Source of the DNA: a virus
Virus record (IMG/VR): IMGVR_UViG_3300022200_004630
Location: 1 to 27,002 of that record
Length of the DNA: 27,002 bases
Direction: 5' to 3' (one strand)
Shown: piece by piece, positions 4,513-26,723 of the stretch
How positions within the stretch are numbered: position 1 is the first letter of the stretch
How the letters are laid out: each line of letters begins with the position of its first letter
Program-made: the position numbers and the translations under genes
The notes under the pieces: model-generated
Databases searched by the model: none
Told to the model about the DNA's origin: nothing
The model's input: the letters and a program-made list of their open reading frames with translations, nothing else

Positions 4513-4707
4513 CTAGTGATTCCAGCCGCAGATGCGCGCGCCGGTGTCGTTGTTGTCGTTGATCTGCCGCGCCAACTCGCCGCTAATTACCTCAATGTCG
4601 TGTGACGTTGGCCGAATAGGTGACGCCCAGCAATCGCTAGTCTGGCTCACGCACCCACTTACGAACGGCATCACGCACAGCACCATCAGAAAGTTTCGCA
4701 TTTTCAT
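4513..4707 (-). CDS. Outer-membrane spanin lipoprotein (Rz1/o-spanin type)
   Basis: This 64-residue protein has a basic N-terminus (MKMRN), a hydrophobic core and a lipobox VSG/C with Cys19, so it is predicted to be a lipoprotein with a mature part of 46 residues. The mature part carries two more Cys (26 and 60) and a PIRPTSHDIEVISGELARQ segment. Its first 71 bases overlap, in another frame, the end of the preceding inner-membrane spanin gene, which is the classical Rz/Rz1 nested layout. An AAAGGA ribosome site lies about 8 bases before ATG 4705-4707, inside the partner gene. Known role of the family: with the i-spanin it bridges the periplasm and fuses inner and outer membranes in the last step of lysis. 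It implies a Gram-negative host. Confidence 0.85.
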   Translation of the reverse strand: MKMRNFLMVLCVMPFVSGCVSQTSDCWASPIRPTSHDIEVISGELARQINDNNDTGARICGWNH

Positions 4708-4879
4708 CTCGCACGTCCTTTGCGGTTATCAGGGCATCCAGTCTTTTCTCGATGATCTTGCTTTTCGCCGCTACGTTGCCAGATCGCCGCCCAGCAAGCC
4801 ACGACACCCCAGCGGCAAAGATAGCGGCCAGAGCGGCCCATACGGGCGTTGGAATGGCGTTTATGAGTAGGGCAATCAT
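4637..4879 (-). CDS. Inner-membrane spanin (Rz/i-spanin type)
   Basis: This 80-residue protein has an N-terminal membrane segment (about residues 8-29) followed by the basic GRRSG junction. A charged helical tail with heptad-like spacing (KIIEKRLDALITAKDVRDENAKL) would form a periplasmic coiled coil. This N-in, one-helix plus coiled-coil plan, together with a nested lipoprotein gene in another frame, is the hallmark of two-component spanins. It is shorter than lambda Rz, as in many small phages. Its ATG overlaps the stop of the 59-residue membrane protein upstream (ATGA at 4876-4879). Identification rests on architecture and context rather than on a sequence motif. Confidence 0.8.
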   Translation of the reverse strand: MIALLINAIPTPVWAALAAIFAAGVSWLAGRRSGNVAAKSKIIEKRLDALITAKDVRDENAKLSDGAVRDAVRKWVREPD

Positions 4880-5055
4880 GTTGCGCCCCCGTTACGCTTG
4901 GCCAAGGCATACGCGCCCTCTACAGCCGCCCCAAGGGCCAGCGAAAGCACCAGCACCGCGTCACCATCCAAGGCCAGCGCCTCGCCAACCTCCGACCCCG
5001 CTAGGTAGCCGATGCCGTACCGCAATACGATCCGCGCCAATGGTCCGAAATTCAT
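4876..5055 (-). CDS. 59-residue two-helix membrane protein, holin candidate
   Basis: Reading the gap between the neighbouring genes gives a 59-codon frame starting MNFGPLARIVLRYGIGYLAG and ending AYALAKRNGGAT. It has two hydrophobic stretches (about residues 7-20 and 33-51) separated by an acidic EVGEALALDGD turn, and a basic tail. Both ends overlap neighbours as ATGA: its ATG with the stop of the 68-residue gene, and its TGA with the start of the i-spanin gene, so it fits the operon exactly. Small two-helix proteins next to an endolysin and spanins are often holins or holin-like, and that is the inference here. A ribosome site (AAGG within GGGCAAGGC) precedes it. No sequence family is certain. 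Confidence 0.75.
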   Translation of the reverse strand: MNFGPLARIVLRYGIGYLAGSEVGEALALDGDAVLVLSLALGAAVEGAYALAKRNGGAT

Positions 5056-5068
5056 GCCTTGCCCTTTC
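5050..5068. repeat. Copy 1 of a duplicated 19-base gene-junction sequence
   Basis: The 19 bases here match 5253-5271 at 18 of 19 positions. On the coding strand both copies read as a purine-rich ribosome site, AAGGC, and an ATGA stop/start overlap. Both copies also encode the same last residues (KGKA) of the upstream proteins and the first residues (MN) of the downstream ones. Confidence 0.75.
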
Positions 5069-5258
5069 TTTCGTCAATGTCTGTGTAAGACCAAAATGAC
5101 CAATCCGGCCCATCCAAAAAACCCTTTTTCTGGACCATTTGGCGCGAAACATGGCGAAGCCATGCCCACTTTCCATAGAATAACTTGACGGGTTTCCAAG
5201 CGAACCACGCATGAGATGGGCCTATCTTTGAACCAAAACTATATTCTGGATGATTCAT
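5052..5258 (-). CDS. Small aromatic-rich phage protein of unknown function
   Basis: This 68-residue protein is unusually rich in Trp, Phe and Tyr (for example SHAWFAWKP, GKWAWLRHVSRQ, PDWSFWSY) and is basic in the middle. It has no membrane helix or signal. Small W-rich proteins with a WLR motif and an FWxY tail are common next to phage lysis genes, but I know of no established function. It sits between the muramidase and the 59-residue membrane protein and overlaps both by ATGA. The upstream junction is a near copy of its own downstream junction. A role in lysis control is possible only from position. Confidence 0.75.
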   Translation of the reverse strand: MNHPEYSFGSKIGPSHAWFAWKPVKLFYGKWAWLRHVSRQMVQKKGFLDGPDWSFWSYTDIDERKGKA

Positions 5259-5271
5259 GCCTTACCCTTTC
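5253..5271. repeat. Copy 2 of a duplicated 19-base gene-junction sequence
   Basis: This matches 5050-5068 at 18 of 19 bases and serves as the ribosome site and ATGA overlap between the muramidase and the 68-residue gene. Confidence 0.75.
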
Positions 5272-6019
5272 CAATGAATGCCGCGATTGCGGAGAATAAT
5301 GCTGTGATTGCCGACCACCACCCGCTACCGGCCTCTTGGTCAACCGCCGAGGGTTCGCGCCCCGCTGCGTCAACGAGCGGCAAGTCGATCGGGATTTGCT
5401 TGACCGGCTCTTGGTATGGCGTCCAAGGCGTGTCGCGGATATTCGACCACTTCGCGTAGGCCGCAGCCAGCTTTGTGTGGTAGCCGTTCTTGGCGTACTG
5501 TGGGCCATTGTAGCCGCGCGCAAAGCCCTCCCAGTCTTTAGCACGCAGTTCATCATCCAGCTTTGCCGACTTGATGAAGCTGACCATCGCTTGAAGGTGG
5601 TTTTCCTCGTCCTCTAGGAAGTCTGCAACCATTGCCTTTGCGCTCTCGTATCCAGCAAGGCTGTGATTGAAGCCCATGATCTGACCCAACCCCCAAGACG
5701 CAGACATCAAGGCAGGATCGACACCGTATGCCATTGCTCGGATCAGGCGCGGGTAGCTGTCACTTGGATAGTTGCGCCTCCACTTTGGATAGGCCAGACC
5801 CTCTTTCGCCGCTTTGTCGCGCAATGGGCCGGGGCCAAGTTCACGCCAGAAAATGTGCGGCTCGAACAGCATGGCCGGTCGCCCCTGACTGTCAAAGCCA
5901 GAATTTCGCGCTTCAACGTCCATGACCGCATGAACCTCATCCTCGCCCACGCCGATCATCGCCCCGAGGCGGGGGATATCCACGTCATCAAGTCGCCTTG
6001 CCTTGCCCTTGAAAATCAT
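5255..6019 (-). CDS. Endolysin, N-acetylmuramidase family, with C-terminal hydrophobic helix
   Basis: This 254-residue protein is predicted to cleave the MurNAc-GlcNAc bond of peptidoglycan. Residues about 15-195 match the N-acetylmuramidase family (Pfam PF11860, formerly DUF3380). The likely catalytic Glu36 lies in DVEARNSGF, followed by GRPAMLFEPHIFWRE (47-60) and SASWGLGQIMGFNHSLAGY (107-124). A proline-rich linker (about 198-230) leads to a hydrophobic segment at about 234-250 (WWSAITALFSAIAAFIG) with a basic KGKA end. No N-terminal signal or cell-wall-binding domain is seen. The C-terminal helix could anchor the enzyme in the membrane until lysis. The ATG overlaps the preceding stop (ATGA 6016-6019), and the gene sits in the lysis cassette. 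Confidence 0.9.
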   Translation of the reverse strand: MIFKGKARRLDDVDIPRLGAMIGVGEDEVHAVMDVEARNSGFDSQGRPAMLFEPHIFWRELGPGPLRDKAAKEGLAYPKWRRNYPSDSYPRLIRAMAYGVDPALMSASWGLGQIMGFNHSLAGYESAKAMVADFLEDEENHLQAMVSFIKSAKLDDELRAKDWEGFARGYNGPQYAKNGYHTKLAAAYAKWSNIRDTPWTPYQEPVKQIPIDLPLVDAAGREPSAVDQEAGSGWWSAITALFSAIAAFIGKGKA

Positions 6020-6345
6020 CGCTTGCCCCTCACATGCTCGGCATAAATGTTGTTTTGCACCTGTAAAATCTCGCGCAGGTTGGTGTTGGTCTGATCGTGC
6101 TTGGATGCAAGCGTATCAACCTTGCCACCCAGACCCACGAACAACCCGTTGTTGTGGCGGAATTGCTCAACCATCGCCAGCATGGCCGCTGTGTTTGCAT
6201 CCATTGCTCCACGCATCTTGTCGTCGGGCTCTCCGGCCTTGCCAGACTTATAGCCCTTGCGGATTTCCAGAGCCCCAAAAGCAGCAATCAAAGTCGCAAT
6301 AGCGGTGATAATTACGCTCACCGGCTCATTCGTAAATTCCAGCAC
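6016..6345 (-). CDS. Single-helix membrane protein with coiled-coil tail, possible holin or lysis regulator
   Basis: The start is GTG at 6343-6345, supported by AGGAG (6352-6356) at a 6-base spacing. That makes 109 residues and a 20-base overlap with the upstream gene. One hydrophobic helix lies at about residues 8-27 (PVSVIITAIATLIAAFGALE), followed by a basic KGYKSGKAG segment. The rest is a soluble helical tail (MRGAMDANTAAMLAMVEQF, then HDQTNTNLREILQVQNNIYAEHV) with coiled-coil character. The gene lies immediately before the muramidase. One-helix proteins with such tails occur as class III holins, antiholins or lysis accessories, so a lysis role is plausible but not shown by a diagnostic motif. 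Confidence 0.75.
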   Translation of the reverse strand: MLEFTNEPVSVIITAIATLIAAFGALEIRKGYKSGKAGEPDDKMRGAMDANTAAMLAMVEQFRHNNGLFVGLGGKVDTLASKHDQTNTNLREILQVQNNIYAEHVRGKR

Positions 6346-6748
6346 AAGCGGCTCCTATCTTTTTGGCTGCATCAAACAGCGCTGCCCGTAATGCCTGCAC
6401 GGATGCGATGGTGAAAGCGCCGTAAAGAAAGACCGCAGTTGAACTAGGGTTCACCAAAGCAAATCCCCACACCCACGCCCCATATATGACCGCCATAGAG
6501 AAGGCCGTGAATGATCTAGCAAAAGGTGTCCACCAGCGCAGCCCGTTTAGAATTACAGAGACAACATGCGCAACTCCAATCGCCATAAACAAAAGCCCCC
6601 AAAACAACTCGCGCTGCATTTCGAGCAATTCAAAATATCCGACCGATCCCATAGAAGTTGAAGGCAACGCAATCCAAACGCCAAGCAATGCGGTGAAGCC
6701 GCCCAACCATGCCTCCATAGGGCGCTTGCGTGTGTGCCTGACAATCAT
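6326..6748 (-). CDS. Four-helix membrane protein of the lysis region
   Basis: This 140-residue protein has four predicted transmembrane segments (about residues 12-28, 47-69, 80-99 and 103-121) and a basic N-terminus (MIVRHTRKRP). It has no transport or enzymatic motif. The ATG overlaps the preceding stop as ATGA (6745-6748). Membrane proteins of this size next to an endolysin may be holins, but four helices is unusual for the commonest holin classes, so it may instead be an antiholin, a superinfection-exclusion factor or an unrelated membrane protein. It overlaps the GTG-started gene downstream by 20 bases. Confidence 0.75.
   Translation of the reverse strand: MIVRHTRKRPMEAWLGGFTALLGVWIALPSTSMGSVGYFELLEMQRELFWGLLFMAIGVAHVVSVILNGLRWWTPFARSFTAFSMAVIYGAWVWGFALVNPSSTAVFLYGAFTIASVQALRAALFDAAKKIGAACAGIYE
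6352..6356 (-). promoter_or_regulatory. Ribosome binding site selecting a GTG start
   Basis: AGGAG on the minus strand lies 6 bases upstream of GTG 6343-6345, inside the end of the upstream membrane-protein gene. It decides the start of the 109-residue gene. Confidence 0.7.
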
Positions 6749-11349: not shown

Positions 11350-13697
11350 GTGGTTTTCCCCTTACCGCAAGCATCAAGCACGGCTTGAAACTCGTCATCC
11401 ATATCAAATTCATCAAGGATGCTGGACGCAGAACGTGACCCCAAGCCATCATCCATATCCACGTCGAAGTCAGACTTGGCGATCTGATCCTCCACATCGG
11501 CGCGCATGGCATCCTGTGCTGTCCGCGCTTGTGGGCCCGAAGGCTCCGAAAACAGGTCGTTGCGCACCTTGTCATCAGGATCGAACAAGCCGCCGATATT
11601 GCTATCCGGCGCTGACTGCCGGCCGCCGCCTAGAGGTGCTTGCTGTCGTGCTTCCAGCCGGTCGCGCTGCGTTATGGGCGCAACACCGTCGATTAGGGTT
11701 TGCTCACCGGCGCTTGTGACTTCGCTTCTTTGTGGGCCAGGATCATATCCTTCACCCTCTGGGCCGCCGCGTGCTGGCTGGGGCTCTTCGTCCGGTCTGC
11801 CAATCCCGCCTCCGCCCTCATCAGGTAATCTTCCAGCCTCGGACTGATCGAGATATCGGAGGTATTCTTCTGGGTCGTATTGTCCATAATCATCCGCCTT
11901 GTTTGCAGGTAGGTCCAGATAATCCAGATCGCGCTCAAGAACACGTTCTACCAGATGTTTTGCCTCACCGCCATTTTTTTGAAGTTCCGTGATTATTTCC
12001 ATCCGCTCATCCGGCGTGAGAAGATCATCCGCCCACTCTTTACGGAAATATGCGTCGAAGTCATCGCGGATACGGTCAAAGCCCCCCGTGAGGTCATCGA
12101 AGGCGTAGGCATCCAGATCCACGAAAAAGCCATCATCCGCTGGCCGACCGGCAAGGTAATCATCCGCTGGCCGCGTTGTGGGTGTTTCCAGAGCACGCAG
12201 CGCCGCCTCACGCTCATCTATGATCCGTGTGACCTCTGCCCTACTGGCAAGCCAAGACGTGTCTCCACCCGCGTCCCTAGCGATAACGTCTAGGAAACCC
12301 TGACGATCGAGATACATGCCATCCTCCGACACGCCGGCCGCCGCCGTGATGCCGGGGAATTTGTCTTCCATTTCCGTGGCTACAAGGTTGTCGAAATCCC
12401 CACGCCCTTCTTTGGAAAACAGGCCGGGGGCACTCTTCGATGTGACGCCCATAGCGCGAAGATCTTGCGCCGCCTTGCCCGATGGATTGACCTGCATGCT
12501 TTCGCCGCCGCCTGGTAGTGGCTGGCCTGACTTTTCCGCCGCGCGAATTTGAGCCTTTGTGACGCGGTGCCCACGGGTAAGCCAAGAGATAAGAGGCTTG
12601 GCCGCGCCGCTATCATAGGCCATAGCGTCAGAAATGGCCGCTGTGGACGCATCTTCGATCTGGCGCACTTCGTCCATGCGGGGATTGAGAAGCACGTCCA
12701 GAGGGTCAGCCAGTGGCTCCGGCGCGGCATTTGGGGCAGTCTCTACCGGCTGCGGTGCCCCAGCACGGTCTGGGATGAGGGGTTCGCGCTTAATTGGGTC
12801 GCGCTGAACCAGGGGATCAAGCTTTGGCGGCGCATCGGCTTGCACGCGACTTGCCGCCTCAAACGGGTTGGCGCCAGCGACAATCGCATCCTCGGCCGCA
12901 TCAATGGCCCCAGCGTCAAATACAGGGTCAGCCGTAGGGGGAAGCCTGTTGCGGCCACGCATGTATATGAATGCGCGAGAACCGGCCTCTACCGCGCCGC
13001 CAAGGATCGCACCGGCCCCAGCCGCCATAGCAAGCTGTGAAACCACATCGGGGTCTTCGATACCAAGACGTTCAGCCATTTCGTACTGCGCCGGCAGGAA
13101 TGCCGCTTCCGCCCCCATGTTGAGAGCGGCTTCACGCCCCATTACCCGAAGGATTGATCCGCCGCCGCCGCCCAATATGAATGGAAGGTTCTTTATGTCC
13201 GCTGTAATCCCCGCCATGCCGCCCACAAGGTCAGCAGCGCCGCGCCACGCTGGCATCATGTTCAGGATTGCCTCGGCGTCAGCATGTTCGGCTTGAAGCT
13301 TTGCGTTGATGGTGCTGTCGATCGCTCCATCCGAAACGTCCAGATCGGCCCACTTATCAGGCTCCGCCGCCGCAGCTTCACGCGCCATTTCCAGCACGCC
13401 AGGGATAGCCCGCATGTTCGAGGCGAGAGCATCAGCCCCCTTGCCATCAGTCACATAGACGTTGCGCGCCTTGAGGCCGGTTCGCACCGCGTCATCGCCA
13501 AGCCTATCCCAAGCCTTTTCGGCCAATGACCGGCTCACGGTTTGCCGTTCCCGCGCTAGACGGAAGTTAGCGTCGTTTTCCAGAGCGGACTTGTTGAACC
13601 CAGCGCCAAGGCCTTCCCACACGCCGCTTGGCTGCACATCGCGGCCCCGCGGCTTCACTTGCGACATATCGCCTTCATCGCGCAGAAAGTACGTCAT
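11346..13697 (-). CDS. Internal virion/ejection-type protein (783 aa)
   Basis: This 783-residue protein lies between the M15-peptidase virion protein and the 834-residue ejection-type protein, with ATGA overlaps at both ends. The N-terminal 140 residues are charged helices. Residues about 145-245 are a Gly/Ala-rich hydrophobic region (ADLVGGMAGITADIKNLPFILGGG, in two or three segments up to AGAGAILGGAVEAGSRAF) suited to membrane insertion. The remaining 530 residues are acidic, proline-rich and probably flexible, ending in an Asp/Glu-rich tail (DVDMDDG, LDEFDMDDEFQ). No enzyme motif is recognised. By order and composition it is a candidate component of the ejected channel. Confidence 0.7.
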   Translation of the reverse strand: MTYFLRDEGDMSQVKPRGRDVQPSGVWEGLGAGFNKSALENDANFRLARERQTVSRSLAEKAWDRLGDDAVRTGLKARNVYVTDGKGADALASNMRAIPGVLEMAREAAAAEPDKWADLDVSDGAIDSTINAKLQAEHADAEAILNMMPAWRGAADLVGGMAGITADIKNLPFILGGGGGSILRVMGREAALNMGAEAAFLPAQYEMAERLGIEDPDVVSQLAMAAGAGAILGGAVEAGSRAFIYMRGRNRLPPTADPVFDAGAIDAAEDAIVAGANPFEAASRVQADAPPKLDPLVQRDPIKREPLIPDRAGAPQPVETAPNAAPEPLADPLDVLLNPRMDEVRQIEDASTAAISDAMAYDSGAAKPLISWLTRGHRVTKAQIRAAEKSGQPLPGGGESMQVNPSGKAAQDLRAMGVTSKSAPGLFSKEGRGDFDNLVATEMEDKFPGITAAAGVSEDGMYLDRQGFLDVIARDAGGDTSWLASRAEVTRIIDEREAALRALETPTTRPADDYLAGRPADDGFFVDLDAYAFDDLTGGFDRIRDDFDAYFRKEWADDLLTPDERMEIITELQKNGGEAKHLVERVLERDLDYLDLPANKADDYGQYDPEEYLRYLDQSEAGRLPDEGGGGIGRPDEEPQPARGGPEGEGYDPGPQRSEVTSAGEQTLIDGVAPITQRDRLEARQQAPLGGGRQSAPDSNIGGLFDPDDKVRNDLFSEPSGPQARTAQDAMRADVEDQIAKSDFDVDMDDGLGSRSASSILDEFDMDDEFQAVLDACGKGKTT

Positions 13698-16378
13698 GGC
13701 GCCACCCCAAGATCGCTAATTGAGGCAGGGCCACCCAAGGCCGGCGCATAAGCCCCTTCCCGTGGGTTGGCCTCGATCAGCGCGTGCAGGTCAAACTCGA
13801 ATGTGCCGCCCGCCGCGTTGCGCGCATCGGTCACGGCGCCGTTGGTGATAACCTCAATTCGGTATTTGCTATCTTTGGTTGGCACGATCCGAATATGCCC
13901 GTTCTGCAAAAGCTTTGGGCTCAATGGCTTGCCGCCAAGCATGGGTCCGGGTTCAGCACCCCAATTCTGCGGAAGTTCGGCAATTGGGTCTTGGCCCATA
14001 ATGGCCGCGCCGATCTGCGCAAAAGCCTGCATTCCAGAGATTTCCCCTTGGCCCGCTGTGAACGCCGATTGAAGCGCAAACTCTGCATCCTCGCCAATCA
14101 CATCGACCGGAAGCAAGACTGGACTGCCGCCGATGGTCTGCACGCCGCCTTTCAGCTTGCCGCGTTTTGTCTTGGATTGACCAAGCGCAGACTGCACCGC
14201 CCCAGCCATGATTGCCTTTTGCTCTTCGGCATCGGTCACGCCGCGCGCTCGGGCGCCATAGATCGAGATTGCAAACTTGCGAAGCTCGCCCTGCATTTCA
14301 AATGGAACCGTGGACAGCGCCGCCGATATGTCTGGGGAAATGCCTTCAAGACTTGCCGACGATGATGGTGCCTGCACCAAACCCTCATCCAGCATGGCTT
14401 GGCCGCGCATGGCTTCAAACGCGATTGCCTTCTCACCGCCACGCGCCATTAGCTTGCCAGCGTATATTGTGGTTGGGTCATCCGACTTGATTTCGGTGAA
14501 GACCCGCTCCGCACCGGGGCCAAAGCCTTCAACGATTGCCGCAGCCATTACCGCGCGCAGTTCAGGCGGGGTTTCCTTGCCGAGAGCGGCCCCAAGAGCC
14601 TCCGCCTCTTGATCGCTCAAGTAAACGACTTCTGGGGTATATCCTGCCTCGCTGAATTGCTCCGCCCATTGCCCGCGCGCCTTCATGGCCGCAATCGCGC
14701 TTGATGGGTCTTCGGGATTGATATTGGTCAGCGCCGGGGGTTTCCTGTCATCAGGCATGATTTCAGTCGCCCGCTTCACAGGGTCTTCCTCAAGCGCCTT
14801 CCTGTTTTCGGCCGCCGCGCTTTCGCCCGCTTTGAGAATGTCCATTTCCCAATCAGCTTGAACCGGCTGGGCTTTCATTTCGGCCAGCGCCGCCGATTGT
14901 TCTGATGGGGTCATTGTCAGGAAGGTTGGCAGGTTGTCGCGCAGCGCAACCCGTGATGCCGCCTCGGCCCACTCGTCGGGAAGCAGCGCACGGATTTGCG
15001 GATTTTGCAGAATGCTTTCATCTGCCGAAGCTTGGCCGTTCATCGCCGCCTTACCAATTAGGCTTAGGTCAGACTTCCAAGTGGTCGTTTGCTCCTTCTG
15101 TCGCCGCACCACTTCCTTTTGCGCCGCATCGCGCGCCTTGATGACTACGTTCTGGGATTGCTCTCTCGTCCATGCCACGCCGGGCAGGCTCTCGCGCGCT
15201 GACAAAATTCCAGTGAGCTCTGATTGCGCAGCAAAGATTTCTTCTTCATTTCCGCCGACCATCGCGTTGACCAAATTATCAGACCACCTATCCACCAAGG
15301 CCGCGCTTGAGTTGTTGGCACGCTGGCGCGTGTCGCGCTGTCGTTCCTCGACCATGCCCAGATACCGGCGCTGCGCTTCCTTCTGGAAGTTGCCACGAAT
15401 AGCCGCCTTGAACATATCAGGGGCAGACTTCACGATCCCATCGACATATCCCTTTGCCGCATCATTGAAGCCATCGGGATTGAGCATGAATTGCTCGGAC
15501 AGCGCCATCATGTCCTGCGCGCCCTTGAGCATGATCTCTGATTGGTAGGCCACGCCCGCCGCCGCGTTGTGCGCTTGCAGGATCTCACCAGACAGGGGGG
15601 AATACAGGCGCCCTACCAGTGAGCCATCCGCTTGCCGCAGCATGGTTGGTGGAGGCAGTTGAGGCGCTGCACCGCCATTCATGGATGATACCGTGGTGGA
15701 CGTGCCGCCCGATGGTGCCGCACCCCCATCTTTGAATTGGAAATGGACGCCATCTTTTAGCGTCTTCCAATCGCCGCCCCATTCAAAGCCCTCATATCCG
15801 AGTTCAGCCGCAACCTTTTTTGCTTCATCGGCAAGTGGGCGATAAGCCTCAAAGTCCCAATTTGCTTTCCCGTCTTCTCCGATGATGTGATAGTCCGCAG
15901 CGCCGCCATGCAGGTGCTTGCTATTCATCGTTTGCGACTTGCCTTGTGCAACCATTTGGGCCTGCCTGTCGGAAGTACGCAAACCCTCGCTCACACCAAT
16001 ATTGATCCCCGTCCGCTGCGAAGCAAGACTTAGAACCTCGTTAATGCGGGGATCTACGCCATGCAGTTTGTCGCCGCCGCCAGAGCCCTTCCCAATCGCG
16101 CCCATCACGTCATTGGCGAGGCCTTGGTTCGGACCGGCCGGCGCATTCATCCGCGACGTTGTGAAGGAACCGGAAGGGTCGCCCATCTGTTGCTTTGCGA
16201 TCTGACTGCCAAGTTCGGAACCCAGTGCCTCTTGCTCTGCAATGGCCGCTGGCTTGAGCCATTCATAAGCCGCATTCGCCGCTTCTGCCATAAGGCGAAA
16301 ACCGCCCCCAGCATCGGGAACGGTTTGGCGGAAGTCCGAAAGTGCGCTGGATTTTACAACCCGCTTGATTTCAGCCAT
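13694..16378 (-). CDS. Virion-associated protein with N-terminal M15-type peptidoglycan peptidase
   Basis: I start it at ATG 16376-16378 (894 residues), which forms TAATG with the previous stop and has GGAGG upstream. Residues about 103-219 are an M15-type metallopeptidase (VanY/L-Ala-D-Glu peptidase group). The SxHxxGxAxD motif is present as SKHLHGGAAD, with zinc ligands His155 and Asp162, and DGVHFQF supplies His212 with Asp209 as the probable catalytic acid. The family cleaves peptide cross-links of peptidoglycan. The remaining 670 residues are long, charged, helix-rich and Ala-rich, as in internal core proteins. Such a fusion in the virion would open the cell wall during DNA entry and is distinct from the lysis muramidase. 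All key residues appear intact. Confidence 0.85.
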   Translation of the reverse strand: MAEIKRVVKSSALSDFRQTVPDAGGGFRLMAEAANAAYEWLKPAAIAEQEALGSELGSQIAKQQMGDPSGSFTTSRMNAPAGPNQGLANDVMGAIGKGSGGGDKLHGVDPRINEVLSLASQRTGINIGVSEGLRTSDRQAQMVAQGKSQTMNSKHLHGGAADYHIIGEDGKANWDFEAYRPLADEAKKVAAELGYEGFEWGGDWKTLKDGVHFQFKDGGAAPSGGTSTTVSSMNGGAAPQLPPPTMLRQADGSLVGRLYSPLSGEILQAHNAAAGVAYQSEIMLKGAQDMMALSEQFMLNPDGFNDAAKGYVDGIVKSAPDMFKAAIRGNFQKEAQRRYLGMVEERQRDTRQRANNSSAALVDRWSDNLVNAMVGGNEEEIFAAQSELTGILSARESLPGVAWTREQSQNVVIKARDAAQKEVVRRQKEQTTTWKSDLSLIGKAAMNGQASADESILQNPQIRALLPDEWAEAASRVALRDNLPTFLTMTPSEQSAALAEMKAQPVQADWEMDILKAGESAAAENRKALEEDPVKRATEIMPDDRKPPALTNINPEDPSSAIAAMKARGQWAEQFSEAGYTPEVVYLSDQEAEALGAALGKETPPELRAVMAAAIVEGFGPGAERVFTEIKSDDPTTIYAGKLMARGGEKAIAFEAMRGQAMLDEGLVQAPSSSASLEGISPDISAALSTVPFEMQGELRKFAISIYGARARGVTDAEEQKAIMAGAVQSALGQSKTKRGKLKGGVQTIGGSPVLLPVDVIGEDAEFALQSAFTAGQGEISGMQAFAQIGAAIMGQDPIAELPQNWGAEPGPMLGGKPLSPKLLQNGHIRIVPTKDSKYRIEVITNGAVTDARNAAGGTFEFDLHALIEANPREGAYAPALGGPASISDLGVAP

Positions 16379-16908
16379 TACCCTCGACCTCCCCAATTGT
16401 TTTTCGAGCCATAGTCGTAAATGTCAAACAGGCTCGGACCAGCTTTCAAAAGGCCGGAAGTCAAAGACATTCCAGGGCTTATGCCGTTGGCTTTAGCCTT
16501 GTACGCAGCGGCGTTTTGCGTTTCGTTGTTGAAGGCCACGCGCCGTTCCGCGCCGCGCACCGAGCGCAGTTCATCAAACATTGACGCTGTGCCTACGCTT
16601 GGACGCTGCCCATTGGCAGACAGCGCCGCCCGCACGTTGGATAGTTCTGAATTTAGCCCTTCACGCGCAGCTTGGTCTGTTTGCCGCGCCCGGGTGGTCC
16701 CGATGTAGCTGTTGACCTTCGCTTGCTCCTTCGCGCTCTTTGCTTGCTCCATTGCATTGAAGGCGCCGAATACAGGCCCAGCCGCGCTTGCAACAAGGGC
16801 CATAGGTGTTACCGCCGCCGCCGCCGTTCCTGCCGCTGCCGCCGCCCCCGCGCCTGCCGCTGCCGTTCCTGCGCCTGCCGCCACTAGTGGTGCCAAAAGT
16901 GCCTGCAT
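16378..16908 (-). CDS. Internal core-like virion protein with Ala/Gly-rich N-terminus
   Basis: This 176-residue protein opens with about 45 almost purely Ala, Gly, Val and Leu residues (LVAAGAGTAAAGAGAAAAAG and onward), suited to membrane or hydrophobic packing. A charged helical core follows (FNAMEQAKSAKEQAKVNSYI, RARQTDQAAREGLNSEL, ELRSVRGAERRVAFNNETQ) and then a short Gly/Asn tail. The size and the position first in the tandem of core-like proteins recall T7 gp14 or P22 gp7, small proteins ejected with DNA. A strong AGGAGG site (16919-16924) precedes the ATG at a spacing of 10, and TAATG joins it to the tail tube B gene. Function is inferred. Confidence 0.75.
   Translation of the reverse strand: MQALLAPLVAAGAGTAAAGAGAAAAAGTAAAAVTPMALVASAAGPVFGAFNAMEQAKSAKEQAKVNSYIGTTRARQTDQAAREGLNSELSNVRAALSANGQRPSVGTASMFDELRSVRGAERRVAFNNETQNAAAYKAKANGISPGMSLTSGLLKAGPSLFDIYDYGSKNNWGGRG
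16809..16890. repeat. GCN-rich low-complexity tract
   Basis: Imperfect runs of GCC/GCG/GGC triplets encode the Ala/Gly N-terminus of the 176-residue core protein. The unit around GGAACGGC recurs, so replication slippage could vary its length. Confidence 0.6.
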
Positions 16909-24363: not shown

Positions 24364-24757
24364 GATCTGACCTTTCGTGTAAAAGTTCCGCTCCGTTGGA
24401 CAGCAATTTCCGCTTTAGGGTGCTTGGCATCAATGCACGGATATTCACCAATGCGCCGCAGATCGACGCGCAACTCATAAGTGTGAAGGGCGGCAGGTCA
24501 AATTCCGGCTCATCATTTTTTATTTTTACGATACTTTCGCAGATCGCGTAATAAGCCTCTAGCTGCGTCAGGACTTCATCATGCCGGTGCATAACACGAA
24601 TTTTAAACCCCCTGCCTTGCGGATCTAGGAAAACCCAAGTGTCATCGGCGTTGTATCCCCAAGCCTCACAGTGGCCTAGCCAGTAACGCGCATCAATCTT
24701 GCCTTTGAAGTTGCGCAGACGTGGCCGGTGAAATCCGAAAAACCATTCAACGATCAT
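24335..24757 (-). CDS. Unknown protein between TerL and portal
   Basis: This 140-residue protein overlaps the TerL stop as ATGA (24754-24757). It begins MIVEWFFGFHRPRLRNFKG and has ARYWLGHCEAWGYNADDTWVFLDPQG (split by conserved-looking aromatic residues). A C-terminal stretch LMSCASICGALVNIRALMPSTL follows, then RKLLSNGAELLHE. The pair of a His-Cys segment and a later Cys-rich helix could suggest a cysteine-protease-like or metal-binding fold, but I cannot assign it. Proteins with a CGALVNIRAL-like helix occur in this position in other podoviruses. A packaging or head function is inferred from order alone. Confidence 0.75.
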   Translation of the reverse strand: MIVEWFFGFHRPRLRNFKGKIDARYWLGHCEAWGYNADDTWVFLDPQGRGFKIRVMHRHDEVLTQLEAYYAICESIVKIKNDEPEFDLPPFTLMSCASICGALVNIRALMPSTLKRKLLSNGAELLHERSDHGWRIQGRS

Positions 24758-26280
24758 TTTTTTCTCCGATTGCGGATGCTGTGCCGCTGTGGCTGGGATG
24801 GCGCTTTGCGTTCGCGGTGCGTTGAAGTGATGACCGCCTCACCCTCTCCGCCGCCCAGAAGACCGTTCTCGATCGCGTCAACAATATGGGAGTAGAGCCC
24901 CTTGCGCGGCTTTTCAGCGAATAGACCGGATAGGCCTCGCACTTTCAGCTTCGGGTAATGGTGGCCGCCAGCAAGGCCGGTCTTTGCGACAAGGCAGGTC
25001 GTATCGACGAGAAAGCCGTTCCGGCGCCCGAGCACGGCTTCCATCGCTGACCGACGCATCTGCGTGTTGTTGTCTGTCGTGGCCGGCATTACCCGCATCC
25101 CGTACTTCTGGAAAACGTCATAGGCTGTGGTTTCGGTGTTCTGGCCGCCATCGGCCCCGCGCGGGTCGCCAAGGAAATCAGCCTCAAAGCCGCGATACCG
25201 TTCCGCGATGTGCTTCTTGACCTTAGGCGCAAAGAGCTCCGCGCTCTCGTTCGAGCCGATTAGTTCCGATAGGACACGCCAGTTTCCATTTACGTCCTGC
25301 ATGAAAGCCGCGGCCGGATCGCGCCCGAAGTCCAGACCAACGACAATCTTGAAGCCGGGAATGGGTTCTAGCTTGCTCTTGGAAACGTGTTCGTCTTCTG
25401 AAAACGTGGGGTATACCGCCTTGCCCTCGATGTGCAGGCCGACCTTGTTCAGAACGCGCCGGTCAATCCAAGCCTTCGTCTTGCCGACGATGGTTTCCAT
25501 GTAGGATTTCTTCGTGTGGGTTTGGTTTTCAGCCTTCGGGTTTGGCTGATAGGAAACCTTGCCCTCATGCCGAACCTCAATAAGACCGGGGGGCTGCGTG
25601 TAAAATGTCCAGTTCGCGGGCTTCTGATAGACGCGCCGCTCGTCCTCTGTCGTTTCTGGGGGCAATGGAATGTCGCCGCGCATGTACGGTATCCAATGAC
25701 CCTCGACCGGCGCGTTAAGGTCGATGAAGCCGCCGTGCCACGTTGCGCCGGGGCCGTTACGCTTTGAAGGATAGCGCGCGCACCGTGAAAGAAGTTCGTC
25801 AATCACCAGCTTGTCGCAAAACTGGCCCTCGTTCCGAAAAAATCCCGTAATCTCGTAAGACGCCAAAATCTGTTCGGCAACGTCAGGATCGGGAACGGCA
25901 AGGAATATCACCTCGCAATCAATAGTCGTCCCATCGCCCGAGGGATGATCCCGCTTCAAATGATGGAAAGAAGGCTCCGCCCTAATCATCGGACCCCACT
26001 CGCTTTCGGGAAACCATTCAAGCCAAGTCTTGATCGTCGTTTCGCGCAGTTCCTTGTAGGTGTCCCGCGTGATGATGAACCGCGTGCGCCTCACACCGTC
26101 AAAGTCAGGCTCTTGCTCAACGGCAATCGCCCAGATCTTCATACATGAACCCGTAGACGTGCCAGAAGCAATCGGACCCTGAATGATCGCCATTTCCGAA
26201 CGGTCCCAGAAGTACCCATCCAGAACGGCACCATCCGCAGCGTATATGTAATTCCCGCGAGGGGTTTGAAGAAGTGCCAT
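24754..26280 (-). CDS. terL: Terminase large subunit
   Basis: I start it at ATG 26278-26280 (508 residues), because TAATG joins it to the upstream protease stop; a longer frame would run into that gene. This is the packaging motor. The ATPase half has a Walker A-like GPIASGTSTGS (35-45), a Walker B-like segment ending FRNEG with Glu151, and LSRCARYPSK (164-173), as in P22-like large terminases. The nuclease half has the RNase H-like acidic triad: Asp317 in GLDFGRDPAA, Asp372 in GDPRGADG and Asp468 in SHIVDAIENGLL. Both halves appear intact. No small terminase gene is adjacent. Confidence 0.9.
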   Translation of the reverse strand: MALLQTPRGNYIYAADGAVLDGYFWDRSEMAIIQGPIASGTSTGSCMKIWAIAVEQEPDFDGVRRTRFIITRDTYKELRETTIKTWLEWFPESEWGPMIRAEPSFHHLKRDHPSGDGTTIDCEVIFLAVPDPDVAEQILASYEITGFFRNEGQFCDKLVIDELLSRCARYPSKRNGPGATWHGGFIDLNAPVEGHWIPYMRGDIPLPPETTEDERRVYQKPANWTFYTQPPGLIEVRHEGKVSYQPNPKAENQTHTKKSYMETIVGKTKAWIDRRVLNKVGLHIEGKAVYPTFSEDEHVSKSKLEPIPGFKIVVGLDFGRDPAAAFMQDVNGNWRVLSELIGSNESAELFAPKVKKHIAERYRGFEADFLGDPRGADGGQNTETTAYDVFQKYGMRVMPATTDNNTQMRRSAMEAVLGRRNGFLVDTTCLVAKTGLAGGHHYPKLKVRGLSGLFAEKPRKGLYSHIVDAIENGLLGGGEGEAVITSTHRERKAPSQPQRHSIRNRRKK

Positions 26281-26723
26281 TAGCGATCCGCCAAATATTG
26301 AACCGCGCCAAACGCACAAGTGCTGTGAGCAATCGCCGCCTCAACCGCAATCACCGCAGACGCCCCATAGTGCAACGCGCCGTAGGCAACCTCCGCGCCA
26401 CCACCAATCGCGCAGTAAGGGCAACCCCGAAGATCCTCCTCGCCCTGCGCAGTCAAAAGAAACAAACCCGCATCAGGCCGCCAAACCAAAATAATAAAAT
26501 CACTCCCGTCATCCCGAACCTGCGGAACAACCATTTCGCCAACACACTCCCCAGCCTCAACCCACCTGAAAAATTCTGATACACGGCTACCGTCACCAGC
26601 ACCCCCGTAAATAACACCGGATTTCCCGCGAATAAGCTTCCTCGACCAAGGCGTGACAAGACCACCAACCCACGCTCCACTGTCCGAGGCCATAACCCCA
26701 TCCCGAAATACAATCGTCGTCAT
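26280..26723 (-). CDS. HslV/proteasome-beta-like Ntn hydrolase
   Basis: This 147-residue protein has an N-terminus reading MTTIVFRDGVMASDSG. After Met removal, Thr1 would be the nucleophile of an N-terminal-nucleophile protease. Asp13 (in ASDS) and Lys28 (in WSRKLI) match the Asp17/Lys33 pair of HslV. The body fits the family (GVIYGGAGDGSRVSEFFRWV, then CAIGGGAEVAYGALHYGASAVIAVEAA). Family members usually have GSG where this has GGG, so one active-site-region Ser may be replaced. GGAGG lies 6 bases before ATG 26721-26723. There is no HslU-type ATPase in the window. Its place at the head of the packaging operon suggests a role in head or packaging proteolysis, but that is inference. Confidence 0.8.
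   Translation of the reverse strand: MTTIVFRDGVMASDSGAWVGGLVTPWSRKLIRGKSGVIYGGAGDGSRVSEFFRWVEAGECVGEMVVPQVRDDGSDFIILVWRPDAGLFLLTAQGEEDLRGCPYCAIGGGAEVAYGALHYGASAVIAVEAAIAHSTCAFGAVQYLADR

Follow-up and report, generated by a model that had tools for sequence, protein, structure and literature searches.

In Gram-negative phages, endolysins are commonly divided into two kinds: soluble enzymes, which need a large holin hole, and SAR-type enzymes, which are exported beforehand. M4Lys of Salmonella phage BSPM4, described in 2020, carries a C-terminal membrane domain (PMC7143992), and LysAP of Acidovorax phage AP1 was called a C-terminal SAR endolysin in 2022 (PMC8879335). According to the accessible portions of these reports, both enzymes lyse E. 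coli and both need their tails, M4Lys without Sec and LysAP with Sec (PMC7143992, PMC8879335). A further case, Enc34 ORF39, combines a predicted two-helix membrane domain with a PHA02564 catalytic domain, and the accessible portion of its 2022 report calls M4Lys its homologue (PMC8943055).

Pae87, AP3gp15 and LysT84 have catalytic domain and fold in common with the endolysin studied here. Pae87 and AP3gp15 have, like it, a pair of glutamates 17 residues apart; AP3gp15 and LysT84 differ from it in having an N-terminal wall-binding domain, and Pae87 in having an AMP-like region that lies within the folded domain, whereas the tail studied here is borne on a linker (PMC8972805, accessible portion). 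The survey of PF11860 architectures in the Pae87 paper gives, in the same portion, lone domains and architectures with a wall-binding domain at one end or the other, and the word 'transmembrane' is absent from its main text (PMC8972805). Among the open-access literature matches listed, there was no PF11860/DUF3380 endolysin with a transmembrane or membrane-targeting tail, and in the open-access literature searched, a PF11860 enzyme with an amphipathic or transmembrane tail on a linker seems not to have been described. Membrane-active amphipathic helices are known from endolysins of other catalytic families. For several of these, amphipathic C-terminal helices with membrane action have been published (PMC11929351, accessible portion).

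We analysed a virus record of 27,002 bases (the window), whose predicted PF11860 endolysin ends in a putatively membrane-binding helix. C-terminal membrane domains in endolysins are already known from LysAP, M4Lys and Enc34, and the PF11860 tail is a variant of this known theme. An earlier note on this DNA had set the C-terminal helix against the usual N-terminal position of SAR segments; the generalization was right, but the published cases remove the novelty. The window endolysin resembles LysAP in the lack of a signal peptide, a C-terminal hydrophobic helix, basic residues after it and an adjoining (here candidate) holin gene, and differs from it in catalytic domain, which is GH24 in LysAP. 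With M4Lys and Enc34 ORF39, as far as the accessible text goes, it shares an N-terminal catalytic domain, a C-terminal (here putative) membrane domain, the absence of a signal sequence and a lysis cassette.

A PF11860 muramidase without an N-terminal hydrophobic segment

The endolysin gene (5255..6019, minus strand) encodes a predicted N-acetylmuramidase of 254 residues. A profile search matched PF11860 at 181.2 bits (E=2.8e-53; curated cut-off 22.3), with the catalytic domain at residues 28-191 (5447..5938, minus strand), and the protein matched phrog_1224, 'endolysin', at E=3.6e-77. AlphaFold2, run on the monomer with a 36-row alignment, modelled residues 1-200 at block-mean pLDDT values of 94-98. 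The model matched crystal structures of LysT84, Pae87 and AP3gp15 (7 chains, E 6.6e-13 to 5.6e-11), and the next-best structural match reached only E 0.28. Glu36 (5912..5914), singled out by the earlier note, and Glu53 (5861..5863, both minus strand) were each invariant in 36/36 aligned proteins. The catalytic pair of Pae87, Glu29 and Glu46, has the same spacing of 17 (PMC8972805, accessible portion), and from spacing and fold Glu36, as the catalytic acid, and Glu53 would be their counterparts. By profile match and both glutamates, we assign the protein to the PF11860 N-acetylmuramidases, with muralytic activity predicted.

The N-terminus held no hydrophobic or SAR segment, and a scan of the whole protein put the best insertion segment at residues 233-249, in agreement with the claim that the hydrophobic segment is not N-terminal. 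Because the sequence is without an export signal, the catalytic domain would stay in the cytoplasm.

A terminal helix with a segregated hydrophobic face

Past the catalytic domain, AlphaFold2 assigned no secondary structure to residues 193 to 233, a linker (5321..5443, minus strand) that is probably disordered from about residue 205, with block-mean pLDDT values of 71, 53 and 48 over residues 201-230. A terminal helix of moderate confidence follows at residues 234-252 (mean pLDDT 59 for 231-240, 78 for 241-250 and 61 for 251-254). The protein reads ...SGWWSAITALFSAIAAFIGKGKA up to the stop codon at 5255-5257; residues 234-254, WWSAITALFSAIAAFIGKGKA, lie at 5258..5320 (minus strand) and comprise the helix WWSAITALFSAIAAFIG and a basic cap, KGKA. 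The hydrophobic C-terminal helix that the earlier note had placed at 5255-5320, after a linker, is real and its coordinates exact; the amphipathicity of the helix had gone unnoticed there.

The tail has a helical moment of 0.59 at a mean hydrophobicity of 0.99, and its periodicity spectrum shows a sharp peak at 103 degrees. All eight bulky residues (W234, W235, I238, L241, F242, I245, F248 and I249) fall within a 140-degree arc, from 320 to 100 degrees, and Ser, Thr, Ala, Gly and K251 occupy the rest. The moment of the 17-mer was reached in 1/5000 shuffles, and in 0/5000 in a mean-subtracted version of the test; a harsher version, in which the best 14-mer was re-picked from the shuffled last 32 residues, reached the tail moment in 19/1000. 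When the segment was picked by hydrophobicity, the tail beat 2000/2000 of its own shuffles. The endolysin tail is a terminal helix with a segregated hydrophobic face.

Residues 234-250 carry no charge, the last 25 residues have a net charge of only +2, and a cationic helix face is not present on the tail, both lysines lying after the helix core. These values bear on a role that has been proposed for LysAB2, LysTS6 and Pae87, namely that an antimicrobial-peptide-like helix perturbs the outer membrane after periplasmic release. In the accessible literature, externally added Gram-negative endolysins disturb the outer membrane through their amphipathic C-terminal helices, and a C-terminal peptide of Pae87, a PF11860 lysin, is active; some relatives of the window enzyme are more cationic, reaching +5 in the last 25 residues. 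Published activity, however, follows positive charge on the helix (PMC11929351, accessible portion), which the window tail lacks, and 4/25 amphipathic tails of the family are net negative over the same stretch. The phage moreover has spanins of its own for the outer membrane step, and we regard this role as improbable for the window tail.

Small residues are spaced along the helix as S236/A240, S243/A247 and A246/G250, a pattern that we take to resemble helix-packing motifs. It would suit a hydrophobic face that docks not on lipid but on the holin, a second endolysin copy or the enzyme's own catalytic domain, as would the HolAP-LysAP interaction reported in the accessible literature. Such protein contact has only a slim chance in our estimation: a low-confidence linker parts helix from domain in the AlphaFold2 monomer, and tails vary widely where the catalytic domain is conserved.

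An origin of the tail as a by-product of the overlapping downstream gene was ruled out, the 17-residue helix lying upstream of the shared stretch. The last four endolysin codons (KGKA) coincide with AAAGGG(T/C)AAGGCATGA at 5255-5270. This junction recurs at 5052-5067 (both minus strand), such that two successive genes end in KGKA and each junction precedes the next start codon; given this coincidence and repetition, the basic end may also serve as a ribosome-binding site.

Transmembrane or in-plane

Insertion free energies (dG) were computed on a biological insertion scale, and by this measure the predicted insertion of the tail was unfavourable, its best segment (233-249) scoring +1.58. On the same scale the SAR segment of P1 Lyz, which works, was itself marginal at +0.90, and the Rz helix of the window scored +0.18. 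M4Lys has a true TMD (-0.83) and LysAP a strongly hydrophobic, non-amphipathic one (-1.91), with moments of 0.20 and 0.20 against 0.59 in the window tail; measured against these two, the tail is less hydrophobic than both, and it is borderline against SAR. As amphipathic controls we used the C-termini of the unrelated E. coli proteins FtsA and MinD, which likewise have a short C-terminal amphipathic helix (best 18-mer moments 0.63 and 0.54) but carry charge and have a lower hydrophobicity (dG 6.25 and 8.10).

The 35 relatives with transmembrane-scoring tails had a mean moment of 0.15 (sd 0.10, maximum 0.36) by the procedure used for the window tail, and in 0/35 was it at least 0.5; a sharp 103-degree periodicity is absent from them. 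Their mean hydrophobicity was 0.95 versus 0.99 in the window tail, and their median uncharged core of 16 residues equals that of the window tail, which is in turn the longest among the 25 amphipathic tails (median 7). The window tail is the most transmembrane-like of the amphipathic class, and because its small-residue face is without charge, the same appearance would be expected of a transmembrane helix that packs through small residues.

This likeness in hydrophobicity and core length speaks for a SAR-like transmembrane anchor on the LysAP model, in which the KGK end would be cytosolic and the catalytic domain outside, to be released on holin-driven collapse of the membrane potential. The basic cap after the helix fits such an anchor, as does a marginal, Ala/Ser/Gly-rich composition like that of the P1 Lyz SAR segment, and a C-terminal TMD is required for lysis by LysAP and M4Lys in the accessible portions of those reports. 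We nevertheless consider the anchor unlikely. Both dG and moment set the tail apart from M4Lys and LysAP, and some 230 N-terminal residues would need to be translocated. According to the Enc34 authors, in the accessible text, no known mechanism appears to export an N-terminal hydrophilic domain from a C-terminal signal (PMC8943055), and the published cases differ in their dependence on Sec. Four relatives bear on the same question. The tails of L002, L003, L004 and L006 retain the [N/G]-[V/F]-W start, but their uncharged cores are limited to 6, 6, 9 and 6 residues and the helix contains N, K, R or Q, and helix cores this short and polar or charged are hard to square with bilayer spanning. For L004, AlphaFold2 gave a terminal helix at 222-235 (pLDDT ~60) after a low-confidence linker.

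Of the interpretation in the earlier note, the C-terminal membrane-interacting helix survives; its tail anchor, held until triggered, is weak in view of the dG of +1.58, the short 16-residue core and the 103-degree periodicity. The contrary outcome that it had named, a prediction of an amphipathic surface helix, is approached by these values but not reached, since the small face is uncharged and the hydrophobicity is that of transmembrane tails. The reading that we favour, and hold with moderate confidence, is that of a cytosolic, holin-dependent muramidase with a C-terminal membrane-targeting amphipathic helix.

Tail types recur and probably switch among relatives

The relatives came from 260 heavily overlapping loci chosen by similarity to the window endolysin, with one of the six search peptides at the linker/tail boundary and one relative set being the best 80 of 447. 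A readable match was present in 259, and 245 were complete, with no internal stops or unknown letters; compared over the last 120 residues, these amounted to 145 different proteins, and with the window endolysin added and four dropped whose domain end was unaligned, 142 proteins were classified. On how often PF11860 relatives carry such a tail, a question raised by the earlier note, the counts were as follows: 42 had no tail (<22 residues), 35 a transmembrane-scoring tail, 25 an amphipathic tail (including the window) and 40 another kind, several of which resemble wall-binding domains by eye and four of which (L013, L021, L193 and L227) have a GFW start but lie below the cut-off. The subset with at least 50% identity (n=109) comprised 24 without a tail, 30 transmembrane, 20 amphipathic and 35 other. 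The tail-anchor idea fits many of these relatives better than it fits the window endolysin.

For comparison, 894 C-termini of other, mechanically found ORFs from the same loci, represented by their last 60 residues only, included 62 transmembrane-scoring and 28 amphipathic cases. Amphipathic tails accounted for 25/100 tails versus 28/894 neighbouring ORFs (25% versus 3%, Fisher 6e-13) and transmembrane-scoring tails for 35% versus 7% (Fisher 1e-13), p-values that relatedness makes too small. After clustering at 80% (115 domains, 79 with tails; null thinned to 813), the excess held at all nine threshold pairs (amphipathic p <=2.3e-7, transmembrane p <=3.4e-6). As the amphipathic class is defined by moment, and the class thresholds were set after the tails had been looked at, this enrichment speaks for recurrence, not function. 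With segments picked by hydrophobicity, 13/24 tails of the amphipathic class (window tail excluded) and 3/35 of the transmembrane class surpassed their own shuffles at the 0.05 level. The classes are imperfectly separated: the sister proteins L147 and L164, on a well-supported (starred) branch, have similar tails on opposite sides of the cut-off, and six of the 35 transmembrane-class proteins (L008, L009, L012, L129, L143 and L188) have in addition an amphipathic stretch with a moment of at least 0.55 in the last 32 residues.

Conservation of the tail in sequence was rejected; its character recurs and its sequence does not. Between L002 and L003, 14 tail codons are the same, 2 silent and 3 replaced, and between L012 and L008, 16 are the same, 5 silent and 16 replaced. 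On a quick tree built from 109 catalytic domains, many of whose branches are weak and on which the window's placement is unsupported, we counted 38 changes among four tail states (minimum 3; shuffled mean 59.3), 13 for the amphipathic label (shuffled mean 18.6) and 20 for the transmembrane label, all blind to gain versus loss; with only the starred branches taken, each tail label requires 2 to 4 changes. A single origin of the amphipathic tails is conceivable but not supported, and the counts suggest that tails were probably exchanged or re-evolved often, the number of such events being unsure. Amphipathic and transmembrane tail types are commoner than among neighbouring genes, and on this weakly supported tree they change repeatedly.

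In seven relatives (L024, L026, L044, L144, L162, L174 and L179), the transmembrane-scoring tail leads into an R(V/L)xD(H/A)x(S/T)GxN-like end common to them all, which may be a conserved tail module of its own. In L024, a PG-binding domain precedes the transmembrane-scoring tail.

Lysis cassette and proposed mechanism

Beside the endolysin lie a candidate holin gene and both members of an Rz/Rz1 pair, which suits the holin-dependent reading. Directly downstream, a Trp-rich protein of 68 residues (5052..5258, minus strand), whose ATG overlaps the endolysin stop (ATGA), matches phrog_14828 (7.4e-9), phrog_18133 (1.4e-7) and phrog_10835, PHROG families of unknown function; it has no transmembrane segment, the best insertion score being +4.32. 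The next gene (4876..5055, minus strand) encodes a 59-residue protein (dG 0.86) in which two hydrophobic stretches are visible by eye; it had no match in either family library or the phage collection, and we propose it as the holin candidate. A gene 58% identical to it lies directly after the endolysin in L034, L035 and L090, which count as a single case because they share one identical endolysin. The cassette continues with an Rz-like i-spanin (4637..4879, minus strand; phrog_1026, E=1.6e-9) with an N-terminal hydrophobic helix (dG 0.18) and, overlapping its gene, an Rz1-like o-spanin lipoprotein (4513..4707, minus strand; phrog_1275, E=1.5e-13).

Upstream of the endolysin lie a 109-residue protein (6016..6345, minus strand) with one N-terminal hydrophobic helix (dG 0.48) and no family match, which may be a second holin or a regulator, and a hydrophobic, probably multi-helix membrane protein (6326-6748, minus strand). 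Homologues of ten neighbouring window genes were few in 115 other loci (E 1e-3), with zero for the genes at 5052, 6016 and 6326. The gene overlapping the endolysin stop in L002 and L004 encodes a 66-residue membrane protein, which in L002 matches DUF7940, and L006 has an adjoining 69-residue one without a match.

The C-terminal tails of FtsA and MinD are amphipathic helices that lie in the plane of the inner leaflet, and that of FtsA is likewise borne on a linker. By analogy, the membrane-targeting reading that we favour would run as follows. The catalytic domain would remain in the cytoplasm, and a probably disordered linker of a predicted ~30-40 residues would lead to the amphipathic helix, which we infer to lie in-plane within the inner leaflet of the cytoplasmic membrane. 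There it would concentrate the enzyme on the membrane before lysis. Once the candidate holin opens lesions, the leashed enzyme would gain the periplasm and cut peptidoglycan via Glu36/Glu53, and the Rz/Rz1 pair would complete the outer membrane step. Membrane binding by the tail, itself predicted, is the best-supported of these steps; the identity of the target membrane and the benefit to the phage are conjectured around it.

A broader idea, which we offer tentatively and think doubtful as a whole, is that the C-terminus of PF11860 endolysins is a rapidly exchanged membrane-address slot (transmembrane, amphipathic in-plane, wall-binding or none) swapped between close relatives. The charge-free, Trp-headed helix of the window would then sense lipid packing, park active muramidase on the inner membrane face and gather it at holin lesions, the enzyme being pre-positioned and neither freely soluble nor SAR-anchored. 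A muramidase leashed to the inner membrane face would be a third state besides soluble and SAR, and, provided that the tail reading is true, PF11860 enzymes with natural membrane-binding tails would be at hand. Because nature supplies tail variants (none, amphipathic and transmembrane) on nearly the same enzyme, tail type could be compared directly with holin type and lysis timing.

A further peptidoglycan hydrolase domain lies elsewhere in the window, at residues 154-220 of a 900-residue protein (13694-16396, minus strand; Peptidase_M15_4, E=2.5e-10) that also matches phrog_465, 'endolysin', at E=5e-35. Since this protein sits among tail and virion genes, it is probably a virion-associated lysin used at entry. 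The large terminase (24754-26319, minus strand) matched 23 phage records, all at <60% identity, with Microcystis phage Mwe-JY08 ranked top at 41.5%; named relatives this distant point to a virus from a poorly sampled group.
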